A DNA stretch of 15,940 nt from Clostridiales bacterium (GTDB lineage Bacteria > Bacillota > Clostridia > Oscillospirales > Oscillospiraceae), in NCBI GenBank assembly GCA_029098065.1, contig JAQXNP010000130.1, positions 1 to 15,940 on the forward strand, given 5' to 3'. Both the position numbers and the translations under genes were made by a program. Of this stretch, positions 1 through 15,940 are shown in pieces. Under the pieces are notes generated by a model. That model worked only from the letters and a program-made list of their open reading frames with translations, was not told the origin of the DNA and made no database searches. Each line of letters starts with the position of its first letter. Position 1 is the first letter of the stretch.

Positions 1-57
1 CTTGCCGTGGTCCACGTGGGCGATGATGGCGACGTTTCTCAAATGCTGATCCTGCAA
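1..57 (-). CDS. typA: TypA/BipA-like translational GTPase, N-terminal fragment
   Basis: Only the first 19 codons lie in the window; the gene runs off the left edge. Read on the minus strand they give MQDQHLRNVAIIAHVDHGK, which contains the start of the G1 (P-loop) motif of translational GTPases. The LRNVAIIAHVDHGK form is typical of TypA/BipA, a ribosome-associated GTPase with roles in stress adaptation and ribosome assembly; LepA usually reads more like IRNFSIIAHIDHGK. I chose a TTG start (57-55) because GAGGTG (70-65) sits 7 bases upstream and the family begins only a few residues before the LRN. An in-frame ATG further upstream (about 117) lies inside the -10 box of the promoter, so it cannot be used from that promoter. 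The family call rests on a very short stretch; another translational GTPase remains possible. Confidence 0.72.
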   Translation of the reverse strand, partial: MQDQHLRNVAIIAHVDHGK

Positions 58-113
58 ATTCCTGCACCTCGTTCTTTTCCGCGTAACATAGACTTTTTTG
101 CATACGGACATGT

Positions 114-142
114 ATTATACCCTAAGAAAAACCGGAAATCAA
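114..142 (-). promoter_or_regulatory. Promoter of typA
   Basis: On the minus strand a TTGATT -35 box (142-137) is followed after exactly 17 bases by a perfect TATAAT -10 box (119-114). Transcription should start near position 107, giving a leader of about 50 bases before the TTG start. It lies just beyond the hairpin that ends cinA, so typA has its own promoter rather than relying on read-through. Confidence 0.75.
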
Positions 143-164
143 TCCTTTTCTCCGGGAATATGGG

Positions 165-201
165 AAATACGCCGGATTCTCTGAAAAATCCGGCGTATTT
201 T
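165..201 (-). terminator. Hairpin terminator after cinA
   Basis: A perfect 14-bp inverted repeat (165-178 with 187-200) with an 8-base loop begins 6 bases after the cinA stop codon. On the minus strand the stem ends in TTT and then CCC, so the U tract is short. The very stable stem and its place right after the stop support a terminator. Confidence 0.7.
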
Positions 202-205
202 CAGC

Positions 206-1465
206 TCAGTTCAGGGGCAGACCCTCCAGCTTCCGGCGGATCAGGTCGAAGGCCCAGCTGGCCGACACCGTCCGCACCCGTGCCCGGGGCCCGGCGGCGT
301 GGATGGCCTTCACGTGGACGCCCCCCTCCCAGGCCAGGGCGGCATAGACCAGCCCCACCGGGTTGCCCCGGTCATCGGAATCGGGTCCCGCCACCCCGGT
401 GAGGGCCGCCGCCAGGTCACAGCCCAGGACCTTCCGGGCCCCCTCGGCCATGGCCCGGGCCACCGGCTCAGACACCGCGCCGTACTCCTCCAGCAGAGTC
501 CGGGACACACCCAGGACATGCTCCTTCACCTGGTCGGTGTAGCTCACCACGCCCCCCCGGAACACGGCGGAGGCACCCGGCAGGTCGGTGAAGCGCTTGG
601 CCGCCAGACCGCCGGTGAGAGATTCGGCAGTGCCCAGGGTGAGGCCCTGTTCCTTCAGCAGTTTGAGGCACACCGCCTCCAGGGAGGGAACATCGGCGCC
701 GTAGACCAGGGGGCCGAACCGGGCGCGGATGTCCGCCTCCACCGGGGCGATGAGGGCCCGGGCCTCCTCTTCGGTATCCGCCTTGGCGGTGATGCGGAGC
801 TCCACCTCCCCCTCCTTGGCGTAGGGGGCCAGCGTGGGGTTGGTCATGGCGTTCATCTGCTCCCGCAGTCGGGATTCCACCGCCGACTCTCCCATGCCGA
901 AAATCCGCAGGGACCGGTTGACAATGACCCCGTCGGTGAGTCCGGCCAGGAAAGGGATGGCCCGGGCGCGGAACATGGGCCCGCACTCCGAGGGGGGGCC
1001 GGGAAGCATGACCACCCGCACCCCGCCGGCCTCAAAGCCGCAGCCGGGGGCAGTGCCCCAGTCGTTCTGGAAGGGCGTGCAGCCCTCGGGCAGATAGGCC
1101 TGCTGATAGTTGTTTTCCGTCATCCTCCCGGTGTCCGGATGGAGCTTGCGGAAATAGGCCTCCATCCGGCGGGCGGCCTCCTCATTGTAGACCAGCTTTT
1201 TGCCAAAAGCCTCCGCCAGCACAGTCTTGGTCAGATCGTCGCAGGTGGGGCCCAGGCCGCCGGTGGTGATGATGACATCGGCCCGGCTCCTGGCGATGTC
1301 CACCGCCTTCCGCAGCCGTTCCGGGTTGTCTCCCACCACGGTGTGGTAATAGACGTTGATGCCCAACGCGGAGAGTTCTCTGGACAGGGTCTGGGCGTCG
1401 GTATTGGCGATGTTGCCGAGGAGCAGCTCGGTTCCCACGGCGATGAGTTCGGCGGTATGGGACAT
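206..1465 (-). CDS. cinA: CinA: competence/damage-inducible protein with NMN deamidase domain
   Basis: A 419-residue protein of normal CinA length. The N-terminal part (about 1-170) is a MoaB/MogA-like molybdopterin-binding fold, with AELIAVGTELLLG at 5-17 and TTGGLGPTCDD at 67-77. The C-terminal part (about 258-415) is the CinA/PncC domain, with AESLTGG at 280-286 and TGVAGP at 356-361. In the family this C-terminal domain hydrolyses nicotinamide mononucleotide to nicotinic acid mononucleotide for NAD recycling; the N-terminal domain has ADP-ribose pyrophosphatase activity in some members. In several Firmicutes cinA sits in the competence and recombination regulon, often with recA. The ATG start is backed by AAAGGAAG about 10 bases upstream. 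The gene appears to be transcribed alone, from the promoter near 1520 to the hairpin at 165-200. I saw no LexA box (GAAC-N4-GTTC) before it. Confidence 0.95.
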   Translation of the reverse strand: MSHTAELIAVGTELLLGNIANTDAQTLSRELSALGINVYYHTVVGDNPERLRKAVDIARSRADVIITTGGLGPTCDDLTKTVLAEAFGKKLVYNEEAARRMEAYFRKLHPDTGRMTENNYQQAYLPEGCTPFQNDWGTAPGCGFEAGGVRVVMLPGPPSECGPMFRARAIPFLAGLTDGVIVNRSLRIFGMGESAVESRLREQMNAMTNPTLAPYAKEGEVELRITAKADTEEEARALIAPVEADIRARFGPLVYGADVPSLEAVCLKLLKEQGLTLGTAESLTGGLAAKRFTDLPGASAVFRGGVVSYTDQVKEHVLGVSRTLLEEYGAVSEPVARAMAEGARKVLGCDLAAALTGVAGPDSDDRGNPVGLVYAALAWEGGVHVKAIHAAGPRARVRTVSASWAFDLIRRKLEGLPLN

Positions 1466-1518
1466 ATGATAGAGACTTCCTTTCCCTGTGAAGCTGCGAT
1501 ACAGCTCATGATATCCGG

Positions 1519-1550
1519 ATTATAGCATGGAGCGCCGGCAGAATGCTATA
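1519..1550 (-). promoter_or_regulatory. Probable cinA promoter, extended -10 type
   Basis: On the minus strand TGCTATAAT (1527-1519) is a perfect -10 box with the TGn extension. TATAGCATT (1550-1542) lies 17 bases upstream of TATAAT, roughly where a -35 box would be, although it does not resemble TTGACA. The same nonamer occupies the same position before comM. TATAGCAT on the plus strand (1521-1528) and ATGCTATA (1543-1550) also form an 8-bp inverted repeat with a 14-base spacer across the promoter, a possible operator. Confidence 0.55.
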
Positions 1551-1604
1551 CCATTATTTCAATCCGCCGGTTATTTAATCACTTTCCGCCGTTTTGGCCA
1601 TGGC

Positions 1605-1640
1605 CCTGAGCGGATTTTCCCTTGAAGAATCTGGCTCAGG
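1605..1640. other. Imperfect hairpin in the cinA-thiI gap
   Basis: CCTGAGC (1605-1611) pairs with GCTCAGG (1634-1640), and GGATTTT can continue the stem against AAGAATCT with one bulge and wobble pairs. Neither side carries a T tract, so it is not an obvious terminator. It lies in the 263-base gap between cinA and thiI, between the thiI terminator and the cinA promoter. I see no open frame there that I would defend. Confidence 0.3.
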
Positions 1641-1674
1641 CGGCGGCGCCGGGTCCGCGGCCGGATCCCGTGCG

Positions 1675-1708
1675 AAAACAGAGCGGCTCCCCTGCGAGGG
1701 AGCCGCTC
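1675..1708 (-). terminator. Intrinsic terminator of thiI
   Basis: A perfect 11-bp stem (1681-1691 with 1698-1708) with a 6-base loop is followed on the minus strand by TGTTTTC. It begins about 20 bases after the thiI stop codon and closes the comM-thiI unit. Confidence 0.85.
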
Positions 1709-1728
1709 CCTGTTCCTTGACAGGCCGG

Positions 1729-2904
1729 TCACTCGATGCTGATCCGCACCCGCTCGATTCCGTCCACCGCCGCCTTCAACATGGCGTCCACGTCCAGAGC
1801 GGCCTCCGCCGCCTCGCACTCGGCCACAGTGGGCTTCAGCCGGGGATGGCGGGGGGTGAACACGGTGCAGCAGTCCTCATAGGGAAGGATGGAGGTCTCA
1901 AAGGTGCCGATCTTCCGGGAGATGCGGATAATCTCCTCCTTGTCCATGCCCACCACCGGCCGGAAGATGGGCAGATCGGTCACCGCGCCGGTGCACTGCA
2001 TGGCCTCCATGGTCTGGCTGGCCACCTGACCCAGGCTCTCTCCGGTGACCAGGGCCCCGGCCCCGGTACGGCGGGCCACCTCGGCGGCGATCCGCATCAT
2101 AAACCGGCGCATGAGGATGGTGAAGAGCTCCTCGGGGCAGGAACGGCGCAGCTCCTCCTGAATGGCGGTAAAGGGCACCACGTGGACCACCAGCCGGCCC
2201 GTCCAGGGGGTCAGGATCTTGGCCAGATCCAGCACCTTCTGTTTGGCCTCCTCCGAGGTGTAGGGGTAGGAGAAGAAGTGGACCATCTCCAGGCACAGCC
2301 CCCGCTTGGCCATCATCCAGGAGGCCACCGGCGAGTCGATGCCCCCGGACAGCAGGCTCACCGCCCGGCCCCCCATGCCCACGGGCAGGCCTCCCGCTCC
2401 GGCGTCCGGATTGCCGTGGACGTAGGCGGCGTCCTCCCGGACCTCCACATAGACGGTGAGATCCGGGTGGTGCATATCCGCCTTCAGCTCGGGGTAGGCG
2501 TCATCCAGCTCGCCCCCCAGATACTGGGCCAGCTGGATGGAGTTGAGGGGGAAGGACTTGTCGGAGCGCTTGCACTCCACCTTGAAGGTCCCGGCCGCCC
2601 GGAGCTGGGGGTCCAGAAACTCCTTTACGGCCGCCAGCATGGCGTCCTTGTCCTTCTCACAGGAGCGGCACCGGCACACATCGGCGGCGCCGAACACCTT
2701 TTTCATGGCCTCGAAGGCGCCGTCCATGTCGCAGTCGTCGGACAGGGGTTCCACATAGGTGATGGACTGGCGGGTGTAGATCTTGAAGGATCCGTACAGG
2801 TGAAGCCGCCGCTTGGCGTTGAACATAAGCTTTTCTTCAAAGTTCCGGCGGTTGAGGCCCTTCAGGACCAGCTCGCCCAGCTTCAGGAGGATGATGTCGT
2901 TCAT
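1729..2904 (-). CDS. thiI: ThiI: tRNA 4-thiouridine synthase / thiamine sulfur carrier enzyme, no rhodanese domain
   Basis: A 391-residue protein whose N-terminal ferredoxin-like and THUMP domains (about 1-165) bind tRNA. The PP-loop ATP pyrophosphatase domain carries the signature SGGIDSP at 186-192, which adenylates U8 of tRNA before sulfur transfer. In many bacteria ThiI also sulfurates ThiS in thiazole synthesis. The protein ends soon after the PP-loop domain, so it is the short form without the C-terminal rhodanese found in Escherichia coli; such forms take sulfur from a cysteine desulfurase by another route. Two adjacent cysteines at 345-346 lie where the family's conserved catalytic cysteine is expected. 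The ATG start has AAAGGAA about 8 bases upstream. The gene lies 72 bases after comM on the same strand with no T-tract terminator between them, so they are probably cotranscribed. Confidence 0.95.
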   Translation of the reverse strand: MNDIILLKLGELVLKGLNRRNFEEKLMFNAKRRLHLYGSFKIYTRQSITYVEPLSDDCDMDGAFEAMKKVFGAADVCRCRSCEKDKDAMLAAVKEFLDPQLRAAGTFKVECKRSDKSFPLNSIQLAQYLGGELDDAYPELKADMHHPDLTVYVEVREDAAYVHGNPDAGAGGLPVGMGGRAVSLLSGGIDSPVASWMMAKRGLCLEMVHFFSYPYTSEEAKQKVLDLAKILTPWTGRLVVHVVPFTAIQEELRRSCPEELFTILMRRFMMRIAAEVARRTGAGALVTGESLGQVASQTMEAMQCTGAVTDLPIFRPVVGMDKEEIIRISRKIGTFETSILPYEDCCTVFTPRHPRLKPTVAECEAAEAALDVDAMLKAAVDGIERVRISIE

Positions 2905-2976
2905 GGTATTGTTCCTTTCTCTCCGTTCAGTGAGGGATCATTTTCATGGCGGAAATCCGGCCTGGCGCTTCCGGCC

Positions 2977-4494
2977 TCACTTTGCCATCCAGCCGGAGGC
3001 ACGGTACTGGAGGGCCTCCGCCAGATGGGGGACCTGGATGGCCTCGCTGTGATCCAGGTCGGCGATGGTCCGGGCCACCCGCAGGATGCGGTCGTAGCTC
3101 CGGGCGGTGAGGCCCAGCCGTTCAAAGGCCCCCTTCATCACAGCCTGGCAGGGCTCGTCCAGCGGGCAGTACGCCTCCAGTTCGGTGCGGCCCATCTGCG
3201 CGTTGCAGGCCGGCCCTTCCGGGCCGAAGCGGGCGGTCTGGACCGCCCGGGCTCCGTCCACCCGCTTCTTGATCTCCGCCGAGGGCTCTCCGCCGGGCCT
3301 GTCCGCCAGCGTGTCGAAATCGGGGGCGTCCACCTCCACCGTCAGGTCGATGCGGTCCAGCAGGGGCCCGGACAGCTTGGACTGATATTTTTCCACATCC
3401 CTGGGGGAACACCGGCACCGGTCCCCGTGGCCGTACCAGCCGCACTTGCAGGGATTCATGGCGCACACCAGCATGAACCGGGCGGGGAAGGACTCGCTGC
3501 CGCCGGCCCGGGTGATCTGGACCTTTCCCTCCTCCATAGGCTGTCGGAGGACCTCCAGCACATCCTTGTGGAACTCGGGCAGCTCGTCCAGAAAGAGCAC
3601 CCCATGGTGGGCCAGGGAGATCTCCCCGGGCCGGATGACGGGCTTTCCGCCCCCCGCCATGCCCGTGGCGGAGATGGTGTGGTGCGGGGCCCGGAAGGGC
3701 CGCCGGGTGACCATGGGATGTTCTTTTGTGGTCAGTCCCATCACCGACCAGACGGCGGTGGCCTCCAGCGCCTCCCGCTCGGAAAGCCCGGGCAGGATGG
3801 AGGGCAGCCGCCGGGCCAGCATGGACTTGCCCGACCCCGGCGGGCCGATCATCAGCACGTTGTGGCCCCCGGCGGCGGCGATCTCCAGGGCCCGCTTCAC
3901 GTTCTCCTGGCCCTTCACATCGGCAAAATCGGGGGCGGCCTCCGCCTCCGGCGGCGGGACCCAGGGCAGGGCGGGGGCAATGGGGGCCTCCCCCCGAAGA
4001 TGGGCCACCAGCTGGGATACATGCTCCACGGGGTAGACGGTGACGCCCCCGGCCAGAGTGGCCTCGCTGGCGGAATCGGCGGGGACGAAGAGGTCCAGGA
4101 TCCCGCCGGCCCGGGCGGCTAAGGCCATGGGAAGCATGCCGGGCACGCTCCGCACCGCGCCGGACAGGGACAGCTCCCCTAGGAAGGCGGCCTCCGGCCC
4201 CGGCCGGGGCAGCTCCCCCTGGGCGGCCAGAATGCCCACCAGAATGGGCAGGTCATACATGGTTCCCCCCTTTTTCCGGTCGGCGGGAGCCAGGTTCACC
4301 GTGATGCGGGAGACCGGGAAGGAAAAACCGCAGTTCTTCACCGCGGCGCGGACCCGGTCTCGGGCCTCCTTGACGGCGGCGTCGGGCAGTCCCACGATCT
4401 CAAAATTGGGCAGTCCGCCGGAGAGATCGCACTCCGCGGTGACCTCGTAGCCCTCCACTCCGCGGAGCCCCAGCGAGCGCACCTGGGTCATCAT
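2977..4494 (-). CDS. comM: ComM/YifB family Mg-chelatase-like AAA+ ATPase
   Basis: A 505-residue protein of usual ComM/YifB length. The N-terminal ChlI/Lon-protease-like domain (about 1-170) includes the family's LPNFEIVGLPDAAVKEA segment at 28-44. The AAA+ core has Walker A GPPGSGKS at 217-224 and Walker B VLFLDE at 299-304. A cysteine cluster (C344, C349, C351, C360, C362) may bind zinc, and the C-terminal Mg-chelatase domain follows. ComM is a hexameric helicase that drives branch migration when incoming DNA is integrated during natural transformation in Gram-negative bacteria; in Clostridia its role is untested. The first of two adjacent ATG codons is used here; either is possible. AAGGAAGG lies about 10 bases upstream. 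It heads a probable two-gene unit with thiI, from a promoter that shares an element with the cinA promoter. Confidence 0.93.
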   Translation of the reverse strand: MMTQVRSLGLRGVEGYEVTAECDLSGGLPNFEIVGLPDAAVKEARDRVRAAVKNCGFSFPVSRITVNLAPADRKKGGTMYDLPILVGILAAQGELPRPGPEAAFLGELSLSGAVRSVPGMLPMALAARAGGILDLFVPADSASEATLAGGVTVYPVEHVSQLVAHLRGEAPIAPALPWVPPPEAEAAPDFADVKGQENVKRALEIAAAGGHNVLMIGPPGSGKSMLARRLPSILPGLSEREALEATAVWSVMGLTTKEHPMVTRRPFRAPHHTISATGMAGGGKPVIRPGEISLAHHGVLFLDELPEFHKDVLEVLRQPMEEGKVQITRAGGSESFPARFMLVCAMNPCKCGWYGHGDRCRCSPRDVEKYQSKLSGPLLDRIDLTVEVDAPDFDTLADRPGGEPSAEIKKRVDGARAVQTARFGPEGPACNAQMGRTELEAYCPLDEPCQAVMKGAFERLGLTARSYDRILRVARTIADLDHSEAIQVPHLAEALQYRASGWMAK

Positions 4495-4524
4495 AAAACC
4501 GCCCCCTTCCTTCTTATTCGAGTC

Positions 4525-4555
4525 ATTGTATCATATCTTTCAGAAAAATGCTATA
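4525..4555 (-). promoter_or_regulatory. Probable comM promoter with the cinA-like -35 element
   Basis: On the minus strand TGATACAAT (4533-4525) is an extended -10 box. TATAGCATT (4555-4547) stands 16 bases upstream of TACAAT, matching the layout of the cinA promoter (spacer 17). Transcription would start near 4518, about 25 bases before the comM start codon. Confidence 0.5.
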
Positions 4556-4591
4556 ACAGGACGGAAAGAGCCTCCGCACGCCGCTCCGCCG

Positions 4592-4637
4592 CGGGCCGGA
4601 AACCGCTTCATCCCGGTTAACACCCGCTGCCGGCCCG
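4592..4637. other. GC-rich two-stage hairpin in the comM-POR gap
   Basis: CGGGCCGG (4592-4599) pairs with CCGGCCCG (4630-4637), and AACCG (4601-4605) with CGGTT (4614-4618) inside it. It lies upstream of both divergent promoters' start regions, so neither predicted transcript includes it. It is either a structured DNA element or part of an unannotated small RNA. The 515-base gap from 4495 to 5009 is GC-rich up to about 4640 and clearly AT-rich after that. The open frames on both strands there look like chance. Confidence 0.3.
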
Positions 4638-4756
4638 TCCGGACCATCAGCGCCCCTGTTTTTCTGCCAAAAAGATTTGCTCCATTTTTCTCAGTTTTCT
4701 CTTTTTCCTCTCCGCCGCTATTCCCGGATTGCTCGGATTTTCTTCTTTTTTCGTAT

Positions 4757-4773
4757 TGTCTATTATATAGACA
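4757..4773. promoter_or_regulatory. Palindromic operator candidate upstream of POR
   Basis: TGTCTAT-TAT-ATAGACA is a perfect 7-bp inverted repeat with a 3-base centre, the shape expected for a small dimeric regulator such as a GntR/YtrA or MarR protein. It lies about 140 bases upstream of the POR -35 box and 200 bases upstream of the comM promoter. The minus strand also reads TATAAT across it (4767-4762). The regulator is unknown. Confidence 0.4.
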
Positions 4774-4853
4774 TAAAGTCCATGAGAAAAACACCACGCT
4801 TTTCCTGCCAACAAAAAGCAAACTAACCGTTTCAAAAAATCCTTCCTTTTTCC

Positions 4854-4889
4854 TTTTTTGTGAAAAATGGGCGCAGTTTACACAAAAAA
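4854..4889. promoter_or_regulatory. Inverted repeat and direct repeat just upstream of the POR promoter
   Basis: TTTTTTGTG (4854-4862) and CACAAAAAA (4881-4889) form a perfect 9-bp inverted repeat with an 18-base spacer. Overlapping the right arm, GCAGTTTACA (4873-4882) recurs exactly at 4911-4920, where it supplies the -35 box of the POR promoter. The 38-base offset is between three and four helical turns. These could be binding sites for a redox or carbon regulator, or a UP-like AT-rich element. Confidence 0.35.
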
Positions 4890-4914
4890 TTGTTCCAAGA
4901 TCGCAAAGAGGCAG

Positions 4915-4943
4915 TTTACAAATGAAAAGACTGGTGCTAGAAT
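4915..4943 (+). promoter_or_regulatory. Promoter of the pyruvate:ferredoxin oxidoreductase gene
   Basis: TTTACA (4915-4920), a 17-base spacer and TAGAAT (4938-4943) preceded by TGC, an extended -10. Transcription should start near 4950, giving a leader of about 60 bases that ends in a near-perfect ribosome binding site, AAGGAGG (4992-4998). The long AT-rich run upstream fits a strong promoter. Confidence 0.75.
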
Positions 4944-5009
4944 AGGGGTGCTGCAAAGAATCCAATATGAAAACCGAGCGAAATACCTGTTAAGGAGGAA
5001 TCGTTCAAA

Positions 5010-8585
<3,576 letters not shown>

Positions 8586-8606
8586 GCTCCCCTCACAATA
8601 CGGCAG

Positions 8607-8645
8607 AGAGGACGCCCGGCAGATTGCCGGGCGTCCTCTTTCGTT
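8607..8645 (+). terminator. Intrinsic terminator of the POR gene
   Basis: A perfect 15-bp stem (8607-8621 with 8625-8639) closes a 3-base loop and is followed by TTTCGTT. It starts 21 bases after the stop codon. Confidence 0.9.
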
Positions 8646-8670
8646 CCGTGCGCGGTTCGTATATCCTCCG

Positions 8671-8698
8671 GCATATTTGTCCACAATTTCCATACAAT
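8671..8698 (+). promoter_or_regulatory. Sigma-E-like (mother-cell sporulation) promoter of yaaL-bofA
   Basis: GCATATT (8671-8677), 13 bases, then CATACAAT (8691-8698). Both boxes match the sigma-E consensus known from Bacillus subtilis (KMATATT and CATACA-T, usual spacing about 14). No good sigma-A promoter is visible in the interval between the POR terminator and the gene. Transcription would start near 8705, directly before the ribosome binding site. An in-frame ATG at 8697 overlaps the -10 box and so cannot be the start codon. Confidence 0.65.
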
Positions 8699-8723
8699 GT
8701 CTTTGAAAGGAGCGTGGGCATAT

Positions 8724-8987
8724 ATGTCGGAACGCTGGAAACTGCCCTGGCGGCGGGAGGAGCCGGAGCCCGGGCCCCGGGAGATCCTGGAGGAGAGTCT
8801 GGAACACACCCGGGCGGCCATCGCCCAGGCCTACGCCGGGTTCAACGCCGCCGATGACCCGGAGCTGGTGGAGTCCTACGTCTATGAGATCCAGGCCCTC
8901 CGGGCCAGATATTCCTATCTTCTGCGGCAGCGCAAGGCTCTGGAGCCCCAGGTCGTGCCCGCCGCGGCCGCCCTCCCCGCGGTGTGA
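8724..8987 (+). CDS. YaaL-like DUF2508 family protein
   Basis: An 87-residue soluble, charged protein beginning MSERWKLPWRREEPEPG. The middle is helical, with the segment HTRAAIAQAYAGFNAADDPELVESYVYEIQALRARYSYLLRQRK typical in pattern of DUF2508/YaaL: an N-terminal helix, an FN/DP turn, then a long helix with paired tyrosines. No biochemical function is known to me. In Bacillus subtilis yaaL lies directly before bofA, and the same order is kept here, which supports the family call. The start at 8724 is chosen because AAAGGAG (8706-8712) stands 11 bases upstream and the alternative at 8697 lies in the promoter. The stop codon overlaps the start of the next gene. A mother-cell sporulation role is inferred from the promoter and the partner gene. 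Confidence 0.75.
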   Translation: MSERWKLPWRREEPEPGPREILEESLEHTRAAIAQAYAGFNAADDPELVESYVYEIQALRARYSYLLRQRKALEPQVVPAAAALPAV

Positions 8988-9256
8988 CGGGGGAAATGCT
9001 GGCCCGGACCCTGCCCTGGGTGGGCGGAAGTCTGGCCCTTCTGGCCGTTCTGGCCCTCCTGCGGCGGCCGCTGGGCGGGCTTCTCCGCCTGGCTTTCCGC
9101 ACCGGAGCAGGCTATCTGTGCCTCTCTGTCCTGGCCCCTGTTGGACAGTTCATTGGCGCCGGCCTCGGGATAAACCTCTTCAACTCCCTGGTGTTGGGCA
9201 TCCTGGGCGTCCCCGGACTCGGGCTCCTCCTCATGCTTAACTGGGTACTGCGGTGA
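8984..9256 (+). CDS. bofA: BofA-family pro-sigma-K processing inhibitor-like membrane protein
   Basis: A 90-residue hydrophobic protein with probable membrane segments at about 11-26, 40-57 and 64-86. The C-terminal stretch, INLFNSLVLGILGVPGLGLL, is the conserved BofA signature. In Bacillus subtilis BofA sits in the outer forespore membrane with SpoIVFA and holds the SpoIVFB protease inactive, so pro-sigma-K is not processed early. BofA homologues are common in Clostridia, including species where this checkpoint differs, so the exact role here is uncertain. The GTG start at 8984 overlaps the TGA of the upstream gene (GTGA), suggesting translational coupling; ATG at 8996 is an alternative. It is cotranscribed with the yaaL-like gene from the sigma-E-like promoter. 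Confidence 0.85.
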   Translation: MTGEMLARTLPWVGGSLALLAVLALLRRPLGGLLRLAFRTGAGYLCLSVLAPVGQFIGAGLGINLFNSLVLGILGVPGLGLLLMLNWVLR

Positions 9257-9285
9257 GGAAACGCAAAATTTTTTATTCCGTTCTT

Positions 9286-9331
9286 CCGGCCAATCCGGCG
9301 CAGCCCTTCAAACGGCTGCGAAACCGGCCGG
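9286..9331. other. Two-stage hairpin after bofA, possible terminator
   Basis: An outer stem CCGGCC/GGCCGG (9286-9291 with 9326-9331) encloses CGCAGCC/GGCTGCG (9299-9305 with 9314-9320). There is no T tract after it, so it would be an atypical terminator or an mRNA 3' end structure. Confidence 0.4.
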
Positions 9332-9596
9332 TTCCAGGACGGGAAACACTTTCTCACCGCTCACCCCATTCTCACCCGGCCAGCGGGACCGGCACCGCGC
9401 AGAGGTGAAATCAGAAAGCCCCGATTTTGCCGGAAAGGCCTCTGATATCATTTGTTTTCCAATGGAATGTCCCCTTTTACATCATTTTTATACTGATTGA
9501 AATCGCCCATCCGGCCGCCCGGTTTTTTCTCAATCCACTCCGCCGGACCGCCGGCTCCGGCTCCGGCGGACGGCCGGGAGGCCGCCCGGACTTCCC
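9332..9596. other. Intergenic region before ridA, no gene seen
   Basis: Part of the 422-base gap between bofA and ridA. It holds a moderately AT-rich part (about 9430-9500) and a very GC-rich part (9540-9590) with overlapping inverted repeats, for example CCGCCGG (9548-9554) with CCGGCGG (9563-9569). An open frame continuous with ridA begins at 9427, but it lacks a ribosome binding site at its start and encodes nothing recognisable before the RidA methionine. I see no RNA gene. Confidence 0.5.
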
Positions 9597-9624
9597 TTGC
9601 TTTTTTTCATTTTTCCGTTATAAT
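9597..9624 (+). promoter_or_regulatory. Promoter of ridA
   Basis: TTGCTT (9597-9602), 16 bases including a run of T, then a perfect TATAAT (9619-9624). Transcription would start near 9631, about 48 bases before the ridA ATG, so the upstream in-frame extension of the ORF would not be transcribed. Confidence 0.7.
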
Positions 9625-9678
9625 GAGGGGGAAGAAAGCCCATATACCCATCGAATCTTTCAAAGGAGGACATTTGAA

Positions 9679-10053
9679 ATGAACAAGACGATTGCTTCTT
9701 CCAACGCCCCCGCCGCTGTGGGGCCTTACTGCCAGGCCAAGCTGTGCGGCAGCACGCTCTACACCTCCGGCCAGCTGGGTCTGGTCCCCGCCACCGGCAA
9801 GCTGGCTGAGGGCATTGAGGGTCAGGCCAGACAGTCCCTGGAGAACCTGGGCGCTGTTCTGAAGGAGGCCGGCATGGACTACTCCGACGTGGTCAAGACC
9901 ACCTGCTTCCTGGCCGACATCAAGGATTTCGCCGCCTTCAACGCGGTCTACGCCGAGTACTTCAAGGGGGAGGTCCCCGCCCGCTCCTGCTTCCAGGTGG
10001 GCGCGCTGCCCATGGGCGGTCTGGTGGAGATCGAGTGCATCGCTGTGAAGTAA
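9679..10053 (+). CDS. ridA: RidA family enamine/imine deaminase
   Basis: A 124-residue protein of normal RidA (YjgF/YER057c/UK114) length. RidA is a cytoplasmic trimer that hydrolyses reactive enamines and imines such as 2-aminoacrylate to keto acids and ammonia, protecting pyridoxal-phosphate enzymes. The family features are present: Y17 in GPYCQA, the SGQLG motif at 30-34, the key arginine R102 in VPARSCFQV, and E119 near the C-terminus. The ATG start has AAAGGAGG 9 bases upstream. The gene is alone between its promoter and a strong bidirectional terminator, convergent with a YheO/DauR-type regulator. Its codon use is restricted like that of the POR gene. Next to the ssnA-ygfK purine genes a role against 2-aminoacrylate is plausible, because the diaminopropionate ammonia-lyase of that pathway releases it; this is inference. 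Confidence 0.95.
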
Positions 10054-10066
10054 GCTGTTCCCGGAT

Positions 10067-10104
10067 AAAAAACCGCCCTGTCCGGCCGGACAGGGCGGTT
10101 TTCT
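10067..10104. terminator. Bidirectional terminator between ridA and the PAS-HTH regulator
   Basis: The 30 bases from 10071 to 10100 are a perfect palindrome, flanked by a run of A on the left and TTTTC on the right. It therefore gives a G+C-rich stem followed by a U tract in both directions and serves both convergent genes. Confidence 0.92.
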
Positions 10105-10123
10105 TCTGTTTGAAAGGCCGCAG

Positions 10124-10765
10124 TCAGTTCTCCTTGGCCTCGTCAATATAACTGTACAGGGTGTACTTGGAGATTCCAAAGAACTTACACACCTTGTCCC
10201 CTGATTTGGTGATGAGGAACGCCCCCGACTCGTTGAGAAAACGGATGGCCTTCACCTTGTCCTCCTTGGTCATGAGGGCCACCGGCTTTCCCACCACCCG
10301 CACACTCTGGTCGATGAGCTCATCCAGCAGGTCGGACACGTTCCGGGAGATGGGCTCAGGCTCCTTCTGGGTCACTTCGGTGGCGGTAAAGGCCCGCAGA
10401 CTCTCCTCCACGGAGAGCATCATGGTGATGTCGTAATTGATGGAGAAGATGCCCACGGGACAGCCGTCTCCATCCCGGAGAAAAACGGTACTGGACTTCA
10501 GAATCTTCCCATCCCGGGTCCGGGTCAGATAACCCAGATGATCCCGCAGGGTCTCCCGGTCCTGCCGGAGGGCCTCCAGCACCACGTGGGACGGCCCGTC
10601 CCCCACCTTCCGGCCCGACACGTGGCCGTTCTCAATGGCCACAATGGAATTGTCGATGTCCTTGGTGGTCAGATCGTGGACCACCACCTCGCAGTTGGGC
10701 CCGAACTGGGCCGCCAGGGCCTTGGCCAGCCGGAACAGAAATTCAAACGATGGGACTTCCCACAT
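10124..10765 (-). CDS. YheO/DauR-type PAS-HTH transcriptional regulator
   Basis: A 213-residue protein. The N-terminal part (about 5-120) has the pattern of the YheO-like PAS domain, with FGPNCEVVVHDLTTKDIDNSIVAIENGHVSGR in the first third and GIFSINYDIT near 105-114. The C-terminal part (about 150-210) matches the HTH_22 DNA-binding domain, with KVKAIRFLNESGAFLITKSGDKV followed by FFGISKYTLYSYI. The best-known member, DauR of Pseudomonas, represses D-arginine catabolism; members often flank RidA-like and amino acid or purine genes. Here it is divergent from ssnA-ygfK and convergent with ridA, so it probably controls the operon and itself. The effector is unknown. The ATG start has AGAGGAG about 8 bases upstream. 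It is convergent with ridA through a shared terminator. Confidence 0.85.
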   Translation of the reverse strand: MWEVPSFEFLFRLAKALAAQFGPNCEVVVHDLTTKDIDNSIVAIENGHVSGRKVGDGPSHVVLEALRQDRETLRDHLGYLTRTRDGKILKSSTVFLRDGDGCPVGIFSINYDITMMLSVEESLRAFTATEVTQKEPEPISRNVSDLLDELIDQSVRVVGKPVALMTKEDKVKAIRFLNESGAFLITKSGDKVCKFFGISKYTLYSYIDEAKEN

Positions 10766-10797
10766 AAGCAGTTCTCCTCTGGAGACAGTTTTTTCTT

Positions 10798-10825
10798 ATT
10801 ATATCACGGTTCTCCTCTTTTTCAA
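10798..10825 (-). promoter_or_regulatory. Promoter of the PAS-HTH regulator
   Basis: On the minus strand TTGAAA (10825-10820), 16 bases, then TATAAT (10803-10798), preceded by TGA for an extended -10. The spacer contains a second copy of the ten bases that form the gene's ribosome binding site. Confidence 0.7.
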
Positions 10826-10834
10826 GAAAAATTG

Positions 10835-10864
10835 TTTGGCAAGCAGAAAAAAAGGTTGCCCAAA
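10835..10864. promoter_or_regulatory. Candidate operator between the divergent promoters
   Basis: TTTGGCAA (10835-10842) and TTGCCCAAA (10856-10864) are a near-perfect inverted repeat, differing by one inserted C, with a 13-base A-rich centre. It lies between the -35 boxes of the regulator (10820) and ssnA (10869), a good place for the PAS-HTH protein to control both genes. Binding is inferred only from position and symmetry. Confidence 0.4.
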
Positions 10865-10868
10865 AGGA

Positions 10869-10897
10869 TTGTTTTCTCCGCGAAACTGTGGTATCAT
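10869..10897 (+). promoter_or_regulatory. Promoter of the ssnA-ygfK operon
   Basis: TTGTTT (10869-10874), 17 bases, then TATCAT (10892-10897) with the TGG extension directly before it. The predicted start near 10904 gives a leader of about 180 bases. A TTGACA at 10905-10910 has no acceptable -10 box at the proper distance and pairs inside the leader RNA instead. Confidence 0.6.
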
Positions 10898-10903
10898 GAA
10901 GCT

Positions 10904-11070
10904 GTTGACAGGGAGTTTTCCTGTGAAAATCAACCAAATAACCGGTCACGGCTGAAACGAAGTGCTGCGCGCACGGGCTGAATGGGTGGACACATCCGGC
11001 CTGCAGTCCGGCCGGCGGCGAGGACGCCCATTCCCATACCGGGGAAGGGCGTTTTTTTGACGCCTGTAAG
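10904..11070 (+). ncRNA. Structured ssnA leader: riboswitch-like attenuator of unknown class
   Basis: The leader contains several helices. GTTGA/TCAAC (10904-10908 with 10930-10934) encloses ACAGG/CCTGT (10908-10912 with 10920-10924; the A can be in only one stem). GTGC/GCAC can pair within 10962-10974. A 9-bp helix joins 10980-10988 to 11025-11033 and encloses CCGGCC/GGCCGG (10996-11001 with 11010-11015). The 3' strand of that long helix is also the 5' strand of the terminator at 11025-11058, so the two are mutually exclusive. This is the layout of a transcriptional riboswitch or protein-dependent attenuator. I do not recognise the conserved cores of the purine, Moco, TPP, FMN, cobalamin, THF, glycine or guanidine classes. 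The ligand may be a purine or cofactor linked to the operon; that is inference. Confidence 0.6.
11025..11058 (+). terminator. Leader (attenuator) terminator before ssnA
   Basis: CGCCC and TTCCC (11025-11035, one bulged A) pair with GGGAA and GGGCG (11042-11051), leaving a 6-base loop, and seven T follow (11052-11058). It ends 13 bases before the ssnA ribosome binding site, so full termination would silence the operon; it only makes sense as a conditional terminator. Confidence 0.85.
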
Positions 11071-11084
11071 AAAGGAGTTTTATC

Positions 11085-12425
11085 ATGCTGCTGCTGGGAA
11101 ACGGACGGGTTATCACCAGAGACGACGCCTGTCCCTATCTGCCCGACGGGGCGGTCGCCATGGAGGGGGAGACCATCCGGGAGATCGGCCCCACCGCCGG
11201 GCTGAAGGCCAGGTATCCCCAGGCGGAATTTGTGGACGCCAGGGGCGGGGTCATCATGCCCGGCCTGATCAACGCCCATACCCACATCTACTCCGGTCTG
11301 GCCCGGGGCCTGGCCATCGAGGGGAACAACCCCTCCAACTTTCTGGAGGTGCTGGAGGGCACCTGGTGGAACATCGACCGGCACCTGACGCTGGACGGCA
11401 CCCGGGCCTGCGCCGACGCCACCATCCTGGAGTGCATCCGCAACGGCGTCACCACCATCTTTGACCACCACGCCTCCTTCCGGGAGATCCCCGGCTCCCT
11501 TTTCGCCATCGAGGAGGAGTGCAGGAAGTTCGGCATCCGGGCCTGCCTGTGCTATGAGGTCAGCGAACGGGACGGGGCGGAAAAGTGCCGCCAGGCCATC
11601 CGGGAAAACGCCGACTTCGCCCGGCACTGCAAAGAGGAAAACTCGGATATGATAAAGGCCATGTTCGGCGGCCACGCCCTGTTCACCATCTCGGACAAGA
11701 CCTTTGAGGAGATGGTGAAGGCCAACGACGGTATGACCGGCTTCCACATCCACGTCTCCGAGGGGATGAACGACGTCATCGACTCCCGGGAGAAGTACGG
11801 CTGCCGGGCGGTGAACCGTCTCTACTACAACGGCATCCTGGGGCCCAAAACCATTCTGGGGCACTGTATCCACGTCTCCCCGGCGGAAATGGACCTGATC
11901 CGGGAGACCGGCACCATGGTGGTGAACAACCCGGAGAGCAACATGGGCAACGCCGTGGGCTGCGCCCCTGTGCTGCGGATGTTTGAACAGGGCATCCTGG
12001 TGGGTCTCGGCACCGACGCCTATACCCACGATATGCTGGAGAGCCTGAAGGCGGAGCTGACCATCCAGCGCCACAACGCCTGCAAACCCAACGTGGCCTG
12101 GGGAGAGGCCACCGCCATGCTCTTCCGGAATAACGCCGCCATCGGCGCGCGGTACTTTGAAAAGCCTCTCGGAGTGCTGAAGCCGGGGGCCGCCGCCGAC
12201 GTCATCGTCATGGAATACCATGATTTCACCCCGTTCTCTCACGAGAATATCGACGGCCATATGCTCTTCGGGATGCAGGGCCACGACTGCACCACCACCA
12301 TCATCAACGGCAGGGTGCTCTACCGGGACCGCCGGTTCACGGACATTGACGAAGCGGCGGTAAACGCCTTCTGCCTGGAGCAGTCCAAAAAACTCTGGGG
12401 TGAGCTGAACCACCGGACCTACTGA
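11085..12425 (+). CDS. ssnA: SsnA-type putative aminohydrolase (amidohydrolase superfamily)
   Basis: A 446-residue cytoplasmic metal-dependent hydrolase close to the usual SsnA length. The metal and active-site motifs of the cytosine/guanine deaminase branch are present: H65 and H67 in LINAHTHIYSG, H223 and E226 in FHIHVSEG, H260 in LGHCIHVSP, and D311 in GLGTDAYTHD. A C-terminal composite beta domain includes LKPGAAADVIVMEY. The exact substrate is not proven; ssnA belongs to the purine/uric acid gene set of gut anaerobes, so hydrolysis of a purine-derived ring or amidine is likely. The ATG has AAAGGAG 7 bases upstream. The gene leads a two-gene operon with ygfK, 34 bases apart, under a divergent PAS-HTH regulator and a leader attenuator. 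Guanine deaminase is the main alternative call, less likely given the ygfK partner. Confidence 0.92.
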   Translation: MLLLGNGRVITRDDACPYLPDGAVAMEGETIREIGPTAGLKARYPQAEFVDARGGVIMPGLINAHTHIYSGLARGLAIEGNNPSNFLEVLEGTWWNIDRHLTLDGTRACADATILECIRNGVTTIFDHHASFREIPGSLFAIEEECRKFGIRACLCYEVSERDGAEKCRQAIRENADFARHCKEENSDMIKAMFGGHALFTISDKTFEEMVKANDGMTGFHIHVSEGMNDVIDSREKYGCRAVNRLYYNGILGPKTILGHCIHVSPAEMDLIRETGTMVVNNPESNMGNAVGCAPVLRMFEQGILVGLGTDAYTHDMLESLKAELTIQRHNACKPNVAWGEATAMLFRNNAAIGARYFEKPLGVLKPGAAADVIVMEYHDFTPFSHENIDGHMLFGMQGHDCTTTIINGRVLYRDRRFTDIDEAAVNAFCLEQSKKLWGELNHRTY

Positions 12426-12459
12426 GCGTCCATCCACCATAAAACGGGAGGTATTTACC

Positions 12460-15405
12460 ATGTCCGACATCATGCGGCCCATGTCTTTTTCTCACCTGAT
12501 GAACTGGGTGCTCACTGAATACGGGGAACACGGCGCCATTTTCGGCGTCCAGGCGGCCAAATTTCCCCGGCACGCCGGCGGGGAGGCTCTCTCCCTCTTC
12601 GGAGAGAAGCTGGAGGCCCCCTACGGCCCCGCCGCCGGGCCCCACCCCCAGCTGGCCCAGAACCTCATCGCCGCCTACGTGTCGGGCTGCCGGTTCTTTG
12701 AGCTCAAGACCGTCCAGATCATGGACGGGGAGGAGCTGAGCAAATGTGTGGCCAAGCCCTGCATCACCGCCGGGGACGAGTGCTATAACTGCGAGTGGTC
12801 CACCGAGCTCACCGTCCCTCAGGCCATGGCTGAGTACATCAAGGCCTGGTTCGCCTGCAAGCTCCTGGCCCGGGAGCTGGAGCTGGGGGACCCGGACGGC
12901 TTCATCTTCAACATGTCGGTGGGCTATGATCTGGAGGGGATCCGGTCGGCCAAGATCGACGCCTATCTGGAGGGGATGAAGGACGCCTCGTCCACCGATG
13001 CCTGGAAGGCGTGCATGGACTGGACCCTGTCCCACCTGGACCGGTTCCGGCGGGTGGATGAGGCCTATGTGAAGGCCATTTCTCCGGCGGTCTCCCGCTC
13101 CGTCACCGAGTCCACCCTTCACGGCTGTCCGCCGGATGAGATCGAGCGTATCGCCTCCTATCTCATTACGGAGAAGGGGCTCAACACCTATGTCAAATGC
13201 AATCCCACCCTGCTGGGCTATGACTTTGCCCGGGAGACGCTGGACCGCCTGGGCTTCGGATATGTGACCTTTGACGACCACCATTTCAGAGAGGACCTTC
13301 AGATGGCCGACGCCCTGCCCATGTTCCGGCGCCTGGAGACCCTGGCCCGGACCCATGGAGTGGAGTTCGGCGTCAAGCTCACCAACACCTTCCCGGTGGA
13401 TGTGGCGGCGGGGGAGCTGCCCAGCCAGGAGATGTACATGTCGGGCCGGGCCCTCTACCCGCTGACCCTCTCCCTGGCCGCCCGGCTGAGCCGGGCGTTC
13501 GGCGGGAAGCTCCGCATCTCCTACTCCGGAGGCGCGGAGGCCCGGAATATCAAAGCCCTTTTCGATGCGGGGATCTGGCCCATCACCATGGCCACCACTG
13601 TGCTGAAGCCCGGCGGGTACGAGCGCTTCTGCCAGATCGGGGAGATCCTGAAGGACTCCGGTTCGGCCCCCTGGGCCGGGGTGGACACGGACCGGGTGGA
13701 GGCCCTGGCCGCCGCCGTATCCGGCGATCCCCTCTATCAGAAGCCCATCAAGCCCATTCCCAGCAAGAAAATGGCCGATCACGTCCCCCTCATCGACTGC
13801 TTCACCGCCCCCTGCCGGAGCGGCTGTCCCATCCATCAGGACATCCCCGCCTATCTGAAGCTGGTGGACGAGGGACGGTATGCCGAGGCGTTTCAGATCA
13901 TCCTCCAGCGCAACGCGCTGCCCTTTATAACCGGCACCATCTGTCCCCATCACTGCGCCGACAAGTGTATGCGGGGCAATTATGACGAGGCCATCCACAT
14001 CCGGGACGCCAAGCTCACCGCCGCCCGGGAGGCCTTCGGCGCCATGCTGCACACGCTGGTCCCCAAGGCGCCCCGGCGGGACCGGAAGGTGGCCGTCGTA
14101 GGCGGCGGCCCCGCCGGCATGGCGGCGGCCTTCTATCTGGGCCGGGAGGGGGTCCCGGTCACCATTTACGAGGCCACCGGCGCACTGGGCGGCGTGGTCC
14201 GCCATATCATCCCCTCTTTCCGCATCTCCGACGAGGCCATTGACCGGGATGAACAGATCATCCGGGCCATGGGGGCGGAGGTGAAGCTGAACAGCCCGAT
14301 TTCCTCCTGCAAAGAGCTGGAGGGCAGGGGCTATACTCACATTCTCTTTGCCACCGGCGCCCAGAAGGCGGGAGATCCCCGGCTGAAATACGGAGACTAT
14401 GTGAACTTCACCGAGGTGCTCGCCGCCATCAAAACCGGAGCGGCCCCCGATCTGGGCACCGATGTGGCGGTCATCGGCGGCGGCAACTCCGCCATGGACA
14501 CCGCCCGGGCGGTAAAGCGCCTGCCCGGCGTGGCGCGGGTCCGGCTGGTCTACCGCCGCACCCGGCAGTATATGCCCGCCGAGGAGGAGGAGCTGCGCCT
14601 GGCCATGGATGAGGGCGTGGAGTTCCTGGAACTGCTGGCTCCCATCGGGGTCAAGGACGGCGTCCTCACCTGCTCGGTGATGGAGCTGGGCGCTCCCGAC
14701 GCCTCGGGCCGCCGGAGCCCTGTGGACACCGGCAGGACGCTGGAGCTGCCCTGTACCACCCTGATCGCCGCGGTGGGAGAGCGGATCGACGAAACCGTTG
14801 ACGTGGGGAACTGTCCGGTCATCGGCGACCGGAGGCGGGGCCCCGCCACCGTGGTGGAGGCCATGGCCGACGCTCTGGCGGCGGCGCAGGACATTCTGGG
14901 CTCTGACGCCGGGGCGGACCGGTTTGCCGCCGAAAACGCCGGTTTTGACCGGGATCTCCTCCGGGCCGGGCGGGGAAGGCTGTGCGCCGACCGGGACGCC
15001 TGCGGCGAGCCCGGCCTGTGCCTGGGCTGCGCCGCCGTGTGCGAGACCTGTGTCTCGGTGTGCCCCAACCGGGCCAACATCTCGGTGGAGGTTCCGGGAC
15101 TGTCCATGCCCCAGATCGTCCACGTGGACGGCATGTGCAACGAGTGCGGAAACTGCGCTGCCTTCTGCCCCTATGACAGCGCGCCTTACCGGGATAAGTT
15201 CACCCTCTTCTGGTCCGAAGAGGATTTCCGGAACAGCCGGAATGACGGCTGGCTCCCCGCCGGGGACGGCTCCGGCGTATGTCAGGTCCGCCTGGGGGAG
15301 ATGGTAAAGACTTACGACGTCACCGATCCCGGCTGCGGGCTGTACGACCCCCTGCGCAGGCTCATCCTGGCGGTGCGGGAGGATTACGGATATCTGGTGC
15401 GGTGA
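12460..15405 (+). CDS. ygfK: YgfK: putative selenate reductase subunit-type Fe-S flavoprotein
   Basis: A 981-residue oxidoreductase. The N-terminal 420 or so residues look like a dihydroorotate-dehydrogenase-type barrel, ending in YSGGAEARNIKALFDAGIWP, with an early cysteine-rich segment (CVAKPCITAGDECYNC). Then comes an alpha-helical Fe-S domain as in glutamate synthase beta chain and dihydropyrimidine dehydrogenase (C447, C452, C456, C495, C499, C503). Two Rossmann motifs follow, GGGPAG at 548-553 for FAD and GGGNSAMD from 673 for NAD(P)H. Last is a ferredoxin-like domain with C857, C861, C864, C868 and C893, C896, C899, C903. The selenate reductase name is historical; in gut anaerobes the gene belongs to the purine/uric acid set, and ring reduction is plausible. 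GGGAGG lies 9 bases before the ATG. It is the last gene of the ssnA operon; no xdhD or hyuA follows. Confidence 0.93.
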   Translation: MSDIMRPMSFSHLMNWVLTEYGEHGAIFGVQAAKFPRHAGGEALSLFGEKLEAPYGPAAGPHPQLAQNLIAAYVSGCRFFELKTVQIMDGEELSKCVAKPCITAGDECYNCEWSTELTVPQAMAEYIKAWFACKLLARELELGDPDGFIFNMSVGYDLEGIRSAKIDAYLEGMKDASSTDAWKACMDWTLSHLDRFRRVDEAYVKAISPAVSRSVTESTLHGCPPDEIERIASYLITEKGLNTYVKCNPTLLGYDFARETLDRLGFGYVTFDDHHFREDLQMADALPMFRRLETLARTHGVEFGVKLTNTFPVDVAAGELPSQEMYMSGRALYPLTLSLAARLSRAFGGKLRISYSGGAEARNIKALFDAGIWPITMATTVLKPGGYERFCQIGEILKDSGSAPWAGVDTDRVEALAAAVSGDPLYQKPIKPIPSKKMADHVPLIDCFTAPCRSGCPIHQDIPAYLKLVDEGRYAEAFQIILQRNALPFITGTICPHHCADKCMRGNYDEAIHIRDAKLTAAREAFGAMLHTLVPKAPRRDRKVAVVGGGPAGMAAAFYLGREGVPVTIYEATGALGGVVRHIIPSFRISDEAIDRDEQIIRAMGAEVKLNSPISSCKELEGRGYTHILFATGAQKAGDPRLKYGDYVNFTEVLAAIKTGAAPDLGTDVAVIGGGNSAMDTARAVKRLPGVARVRLVYRRTRQYMPAEEEELRLAMDEGVEFLELLAPIGVKDGVLTCSVMELGAPDASGRRSPVDTGRTLELPCTTLIAAVGERIDETVDVGNCPVIGDRRRGPATVVEAMADALAAAQDILGSDAGADRFAAENAGFDRDLLRAGRGRLCADRDACGEPGLCLGCAAVCETCVSVCPNRANISVEVPGLSMPQIVHVDGMCNECGNCAAFCPYDSAPYRDKFTLFWSEEDFRNSRNDGWLPAGDGSGVCQVRLGEMVKTYDVTDPGCGLYDPLRRLILAVREDYGYLVR

Positions 15406-15427
15406 CTGCCGCCCCTCTCTGCAAAAG

Positions 15428-15465
15428 AGCAGGCCCCGGAAGCGGATGCTTCCGGGGCCTGCTTG
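15428..15465. terminator. Bidirectional terminator between ygfK and the ABC transporter gene
   Basis: A perfect 16-bp stem (15428-15443 with 15448-15463) with the loop GGAT lies between two convergent genes. On the minus strand it is followed by CTTTTGC; on the plus strand the T tract is weak (TTG, ATTGTT). It probably serves both genes. Confidence 0.85.
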
Positions 15466-15477
15466 ATTGTTCCGCTG

Positions 15478-15940
15478 TTACAGGACTTTGGAAAGGAAGT
15501 CCTGGGTGCGCTGCTCCCTGGGATGGGAGAAAAATTCCTCCGGGGTATTCTGCTCCAGGATTTTCCCGTCGGCCATAAAGACCACCCGGTCCCCCACCTC
15601 CCGGGCAAAGCCCATCTCATGGGTGACCACCACCATGGTCATGCCATCCCGGGCCAGCTCCTTCATGACGTCCAGCACCTCACCCACCATCTCGGGGTCC
15701 AGAGCGGAGGTGGGCTCATCAAAGAGCATGACCTCCGGCTCCATGGCAAGGGCCCGGACGATGGCGATACGCTGTTTCTGTCCGCCGGAGAGGCGGATAG
15801 GATACTCCTCCGCCTTGTCGGGAAGGCCTACCCGCTCCAGCAGGGCCATGGCCTTTTCCTTTGCCGCCTCTTCGGAGCACAGTCCCAGCTGGACGGGAGC
15901 CAACGTGATATTTTTCAGCACCGTCATGTGGGGAAAGAGA
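15478..15940 (-). CDS. Polar amino acid ABC transporter ATP-binding protein, C-terminal part
   Basis: The gene runs off the right edge; about the last 154 codons are present. The frame stays open to the edge ([10 protein letters not shown]), so the ATG at 15927 is internal: LFPHMTV follows the Q-loop in this family. Visible motifs are the ABC signature LSGGQKQR, Walker [15 protein letters not shown], the D-loop and the H-loop histidine in [10 protein letters not shown]. The sequence is typical of the GlnQ/HisP/ArtP group, which powers import of glutamine, glutamate, arginine or similar amino acids together with a membrane permease and a binding protein, presumably encoded beyond the edge. The substrate cannot be told from the ATPase. 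The signature helix reads IAIVRALA where most relatives have IAIARALA, a minor change. It is convergent with ygfK and not part of that operon. Confidence 0.93.

Follow-up and report, generated by a model that had tools for sequence, protein, structure and literature searches.

An ssnA RNA leader with mutually exclusive terminator and antiterminator helices upstream of a uric-acid-degradation operon in an Oscillospiraceae bacterium

The DNA analyzed here, called the window throughout, is a whole stretch of 15,940 nucleotides (positions 1 to 15,940, forward strand, of contig JAQXNP010000130.1) from the assembly GCA_029098065.1 of a Clostridiales bacterium (Oscillospiraceae). Its plus strand carries ssnA, which encodes a putative aminohydrolase (11085 to 12425; NCBIfam model NF005540, 1.2e-189) and is followed by ygfK, which encodes a flavoenzyme (12460 to 15405; NCBIfam model TIGR03315, 1273.8 bits). 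A ribosome binding site, AAGGAG, can be read from the sequence at 11072 to 11077. Divergently, on the minus strand, lies a regulator with a YheO-like PAS domain (PAS_6; Pfam PF08348, 1.1e-37) and an HTH_22 domain (PF13309, 1.2e-20) at 10124 to 10765. The flanking genes, between 206 and 10053, include those for CinA, ThiI, YifB, a pyruvate:ferredoxin oxidoreductase and a RidA-type protein. In this gut-type bacterium the ssnA-ygfK pair forms an operon for uric-acid degradation, whose leader carries a switch-like RNA.

An Rfam scan of the whole window returned a single match above the gathering score, the ssnA RNA (RF03031), on the plus strand at 10942 to 10989. The match covers positions 1 to 48 of the 48-position model, with 40.9 bits against a gathering cut-off of 37.3, and the leader has the P2 and P3 pairs, the conserved internal loop and the cis position before ssnA that go with this family. 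The ssnA RNA is listed in Rfam as cis-regulatory and reportedly emerged from a structured-RNA screen of 2017. When the segment 10800 to 11150 was compared with Rfam at E-values up to 10, no family besides RF03031 was found, and the xanthine-I (NMT1), purine, MOCO, THF and guanidine classes gave no model match. The preliminary description had assigned the leader to an unrecognized class and had named a hit to a known Rfam class as the result that would end this novelty; the RF03031 match rules out a new class. The window leader is a new, real and functional-looking example of a catalogued family without a solved ligand. The Rfam model ends at the core, so the antiterminator, the terminator and the P1 helix described below for the main group of leaders are additions of this study.

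The core itself (10949 to 10980, plus strand) was delimited by fold pairs and conservation. It consists of P2 (10949 to 10953 with 10976 to 10980), an internal loop (10954 to 10961 plus G10975) and P3 (10962 to 10965 with 10971 to 10974). Folded alone, the core is not unusually stable (z +0.86; 164 of 200 shuffles as low), which is expected if a ligand must complete it and is equally compatible with a protein.

Downstream of the core, just before the ribosome binding site, an intrinsic terminator occupies 11023 to 11058 and ends in a seven-T tract (T 11052 to 11058). Its best fold has 12 pairs and one bulged A (11023 to 11029 with 11047 to 11053, and 11031 to 11035 with 11042 to 11046), and on its own it reaches -20.0 kcal/mol (z -4.4), a value matched by 0 of 200 shuffles. 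The 5' arm of this terminator contains a strand (11025 to 11033) that can form nine standard pairs with 10980 to 10988, at the foot of P2. This antiterminator, supported by folding and by partner swaps, encloses a GC-rich hairpin at 10996 to 11015 (10996 to 11001 with 11010 to 11015) and is mutually exclusive with the terminator. Both the terminator and the alternative 9-bp helix had been put forward in the preliminary description, and both are present. The window leader has a pair of mutually exclusive helices, one of the features expected of a riboswitch.

Within the window alone, the antiterminator signal is modest (10981 to 11035, z -1.6; 15 of 200 shuffles as low). With the core forced, the leader folds to -56.8 with the terminator and to -50.4 with the antiterminator. 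At equilibrium the terminator is thus favored by about 6 kcal/mol, and the antiterminator side would need stabilizing. The unconstrained fold (-67.5) contains neither the core nor the antiterminator.

We collected related leaders by Rfam search and by a DNA pattern of the core. Within the window's family, 78 of 300 genomes had an RF03031 match at E-values up to 0.001, 71 of them above the cut-off. Order-wide, 8 of 245 genomes carried it, namely the window's own and seven of its family; class-wide, it was found in 6 of 391, all but the window's own being below the cut-off. The weak matches of the class search (L002 to L006) scored 23 to 26 bits, below the cut-off. The core pattern occurred in at least 119 stretches of the genome collection, with 80 loci among the matches listed; it was found once in the window, against 0 in 200 shuffles, and viral contigs gave 0 matches. 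Before redundancy was reduced, L079, L082 to L084 and the pattern-found loci without ssnA (L098, L125, L135 and L137), L111 excepted, were left out. The remaining 151 leaders gave 122 non-redundant ones, 71 via Rfam and 51 via the pattern, and core conservation was counted in 121 of these, since L146 ends at a contig end.

The gene downstream of the RNA is almost always ssnA. It follows in 75 of the 79 loci of the first set, from the family-genome search, the others being L075, which has another gene there, L079, which lies at a contig end, and two matches below the cut-off (L082 and L084). In the second set, from the pattern, it follows in 75 of 80 loci among the matches listed; the exceptions are L098, which lies in a coding frame and was judged a chance match, L125 and L137, which are short of sequence, L111 and L135. 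In L111 (Intestinimonas; motif at 6105 to 6152, minus strand), the RNA is followed by genes for a HyuA-type hydantoinase, named by eye, and a MobA-like protein; a second ssnA RNA copy of this isolate stands ahead of ssnA-ygfK (L140). L135, whose leader sequence is that of L075, has downstream the gene of an NfnAB-type reductase, which is convergent with genes for a YgeW-like transferase and a carbamate kinase (all three named by eye). Both the L111 and the L135 RNAs score above the Rfam cut-off. Judging from these gene neighborhoods, the regulon probably reaches past ssnA-ygfK to hyuA (L111) and to an NfnAB-type reductase (L075/L135). The window genome itself encodes a HyuA relative (65% identity) on another contig, with a molybdenum-hydroxylase-like frame near it on the same contig (TIGR03313, 281 bits, under the cut-off of 1101.9); no good match to YgeW was found in this approximately 90% complete genome, the best being 34% over part of the protein. 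Two Gemmiger sp. loci, L105 and L143, carry tandem ssnA RNAs, both over the Rfam cut-off (in L143 at 1635 to 1682 and 1804 to 1851).

Across the 121 leaders, one C to U change is the sole departure from the core letters AA.G.AGUG and CACGGG. In the 51 pattern-found leaders this invariance is largely imposed, as the pattern required most of the letters; the same invariance was found in the 71 Rfam-found leaders, where exact letters were not required. Where the core does vary, pairing is kept: P2 pair 9-38 is A-U in 80 leaders, G-U in 31, G-C in 8, U-A in 1 and A.C in 1, so that 120 of 121 retain it, and the last pair of P3 is C-G in 108, U-A in 11 and U-G in 2 of the 121. The helical domain proposed earlier at 10904 to 10975 therefore stands in part: the core (10949 to 10980) is real by conservation, and relatives do not preserve 10904 to 10941 as a hairpin. 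Folded as a candidate conserved 5' RNA hairpin, 10904 to 10941 gave z -1.4, with 19 of 200 shuffles as low, and the hairpins of relatives are placed differently (by eye).

According to how the core is joined to the terminator, we distinguished three platforms, with leaders assigned to them by eye: a window type, with the antiterminator at the foot of P2; a main type, with P1, antiterminator and terminator; and a direct type. In the window type, an eye-picked set of 20 leaders gave a mean antiterminator energy of -13.35 with their own partners versus -10.11 with swapped ones, and 0 of 500 swaps were as low. Restoring the four leaders first omitted (L053, L063, L069 and L142) gave -12.46 versus -9.30 for all 24, again with 0 of 500 as low. 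Covariation of the antiterminator across homologous leaders, whose lack had been named in advance as grounds for abandoning the switch model, is thus found. Two of the 24, L069 and L142, have no antiterminator at this site (start 43 and 46; -4.4 and -6.6 kcal/mol). The best pairing starts at 38 to 40 in 22 of 24 leaders, a position partly imposed by a tested stretch that began at 38. With the stretch begun at 34, the antiterminator reaches the P2 3' strand (start 34 to 37) in 18 of the 24; in the window it starts at 34 when allowed, with a gain of 1.4 kcal/mol.

The main-type leaders share a P1 helix that lies outside the Rfam structure. Its positions 5 to 10 are paired in 64 or 65 of 65 leaders, and position 4 is A-U in 13, G-C in 10 and a mismatch in the rest. 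Own P1 partners are better than all 200 swaps (66 leaders, including the mislabelled L143), and in these leaders the antiterminator strand and the P1 3' strand overlap (by eye). P1 shares positions 8 to 10 with P2 in main-group leaders such as L007, L034, L039 and L101, and the Rfam model could be extended by it. Elsewhere P1 has no support, swaps being as good in 197 of 200 cases for the window-type leaders, 134 of 200 for the direct ones and 72 of 200 for the others; a P1 in the main-group register was accordingly rejected for the window (10946 to 10949 with 10986 to 10989). Four other long-range pairings were also set aside or not claimed: the 3' half of the core with the interior hairpin (115 of 200 shuffles as good); the 5' half with the same hairpin (0 of 200 jointly, but 6 of 23 leaders individually versus 5 of 23 in the reversed control); and the 5' leader with either the antiterminator strand (matched by 444 of 500 swaps) or the core 3' half (matched by 34 of 500).

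In the direct type, the 3' half of the core is itself the 5' arm of the terminator, which reaches the U tract. We called this pairing, between the terminator 3' arm and the core 3' half, significant when at most 2 of 100 shuffles were as good and it lay within 6 nt of the U tract. Seven of 119 leaders passed (L049, L057, L070, L074, L078, L146 and L157), L072, L132 and L147 being left out as they have no U tract; a few of 119 are expected at 2 of 100 by chance before the position condition is applied, and eight were listed at that level, L099 lying far from the U tract. Near the threshold are L047, L048 and L081 (3, 5 and 7 of 100), and L056, L071, L111 and L131 show the direct layout without individual significance (14 to 22 of 100). 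Mapped onto a tree of 114 SsnA proteins, the seven significant leaders correspond to seven separate changes, and all 15 rows labelled direct to 11 changes, at least eight of them on starred branches; the tree was made by a quick method with SH-aLRT values only, has long branches (L157, L072, L074 and others) and carries L143 mislabelled as main group. L074, from the window's genus, is direct, and it groups at 99% SH-aLRT with the window and L068, which are both of the window type. In L100, L132, L147 and L168, 29 to 56 nt separate the core from the ssnA start and no terminator is evident (by eye); these are possibly translational or other variants. The direct leaders recall the "terminator-embedded aptamer" of the HMP-PP riboswitch (thiS motif), a term from the title of PMC6478431. 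That motif serves other genes and another ligand, and the window leader gave no Rfam match to it.

Upstream of the RNA, a probable promoter lies at 10869 to 10897 on the plus strand, with a -35 element TTGTTT (10869 to 10874), a 17-nt spacer and an extended -10 element TGG-TATCAT (10889 to 10897). It is supported by aligned TTG and TGTGGTANNAT columns in the window-type relatives (23 leaders, by eye), L063 being without them. A consensus scan did not flag it, and listed a plus-strand promoter-like site at 11057 to 11086, over the ssnA start. A promoter at 10869 to 10897 would place the transcription start near 10904, so that the entire switch would be transcribed.

Between this promoter and the core, window-type relatives share a block, CTGTGC-N7-ACAA (by eye), which in the window corresponds to an operator-like element at 10921 to 10937 (CTGTGAAAATCAACCAA; no strand assigned) with a degenerate dyad. 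Of the 115 leaders scored, 37 have a homologue of the divergent regulator encoded upstream; the block is matched (p up to 0.05) in 27 of these 37 versus 5 of the 78 without the regulator, a count confounded by kinship, as most block-bearing leaders fall in one part of the tree. The regulator is present and the block absent in L054, L055, L063, L100, L132, L147, L155 and L163. Self-complementarity of 30 blocks is 49% about the best centre versus 16 to 35% about others, part of this dyad being built in by the TGT and ACA letters of a pattern drawn from same-clade leaders. Because of the association with the regulator, 10921 to 10937 is more likely an operator than a part of the RNA switch, and these data suggest that DNA signals (promoter and operator) for the divergent PAS/HTH regulator account better for 10904 to 10941 than an RNA domain does. 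A second control layer, in which this regulator acts near the start site, is likely.

Taken together, these observations support the earlier view of a switchable transcription attenuator ahead of purine-degradation genes. We lean, with little more confidence than doubt, toward an ON transcription-termination switch in which a bound and stabilized core allows ssnA-ygfK to be read. Sensing would fall to the small core formed by P2, P3 and the conserved internal loop (AA.G.A), and the factor that stabilizes it would most likely be a metabolite of reductive purine/urate degradation. With the core stabilized, the antiterminator at the foot of P2 would hold the terminator 5' arm and the operon would be read; with the core unstabilized, the more stable terminator would form and transcription would stop before ssnA. 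How the two are coupled in the window type is a guess, stacking of P2 on the antiterminator being one way. The data establish that the leader belongs to RF03031, that alternative helices exist and are conserved, and which genes accompany the RNA; small-molecule binding by the core, the identity of the ligand and the ON sign in the window platform are what we infer from this comparison. The sign follows from the direct-type leaders, in which a folded core excludes the terminator, so that core stabilization would allow transcription. As platforms have been swapped repeatedly while core and target gene stayed, one common sign, ON, is the simplest account, and it fits a degradative operon.

The same RNA could act with the opposite sign in the window type, a stabilized core disfavoring the antiterminator so that an end product or excess intermediate turns the operon OFF, and we regard this as a serious but rather unlikely alternative. 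G39 (10980) belongs to both the antiterminator and P2 in the window, and the possible extension of the antiterminator into the P2 3' strand in most window-type leaders would imply a competition between core and antiterminator that favors OFF; it lowered our odds for ON and for the aptamer proposal given below, and raised those for OFF. The main-group P1, through its overlap with the antiterminator strand, points the same way, as does the precedent of xanthine-I (NMT1), a xanthine and uric acid sensor that is an OFF switch. Against it, the direct leaders would work as ON switches provided that the bound state is the one with the core folded, and L074, a direct leader, clusters with the window on the SsnA tree; a degradative operon shut off by its own substrate would also be unusual.

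Binding of the core by a protein (an antiterminator or a repressor) in place of a small molecule seems to us improbable, even if an RNA so short (about 30 nt), hairpin-like and unstable alone would suit such a role. The neighboring regulator combines PAS and HTH_22 domains, to our knowledge not a known RNA-binding type, and it is encoded upstream in 0 of 59 main-group loci with enough upstream sequence. The association of the operator-like block with this regulator might also suggest a constitutive or leaky attenuator, with control exerted solely by the regulator; a core nearly invariant in 121 leaders, with the regulator found upstream in only 37 of the 115 scored, makes this very hard to believe.

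A purine-pathway ligand for the ssnA RNA is plausible. Passages of PMC12507026 describe the reductive pathway of the ssnA RNA target genes, worked out only recently, which runs from urate to 2,8-dioxopurine to ureidomethyl-hydantoin and involves YgfK plus SsnA, and HyuA; the word riboswitch is absent from the main text of that paper. A signal arising in reductive urate degradation would suit the regulon outlined above (ssnA-ygfK, hyuA and an NfnAB-type reductase). Xanthine-I likewise serves purine degradation genes and, according to passages of PMC7373994, binds xanthine and uric acid; it differs in being proteobacterial and likely translational, and it has no Rfam match here. Full-text literature searches, which cover open-licence papers only and are thus weak evidence of absence, found no ligand for the ssnA RNA, and a review of former orphan riboswitches makes no mention of ssnA.

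In conclusion, we tentatively suggest, as a proposal more likely to prove wrong than right, that the approximately 30-nt core is an aptamer for an intermediate of reductive urate degradation (urate or 2,8-dioxopurine, "yanthine"), which would make it the first riboswitch of this pathway, acting ON through at least three interchangeable terminator designs. The comparative data provide a predicted sign, a regulon, a shortlist of ligands and convenient test leaders, which makes the orphan ssnA RNA testable, and the bacteria concerned matter for gut urate.
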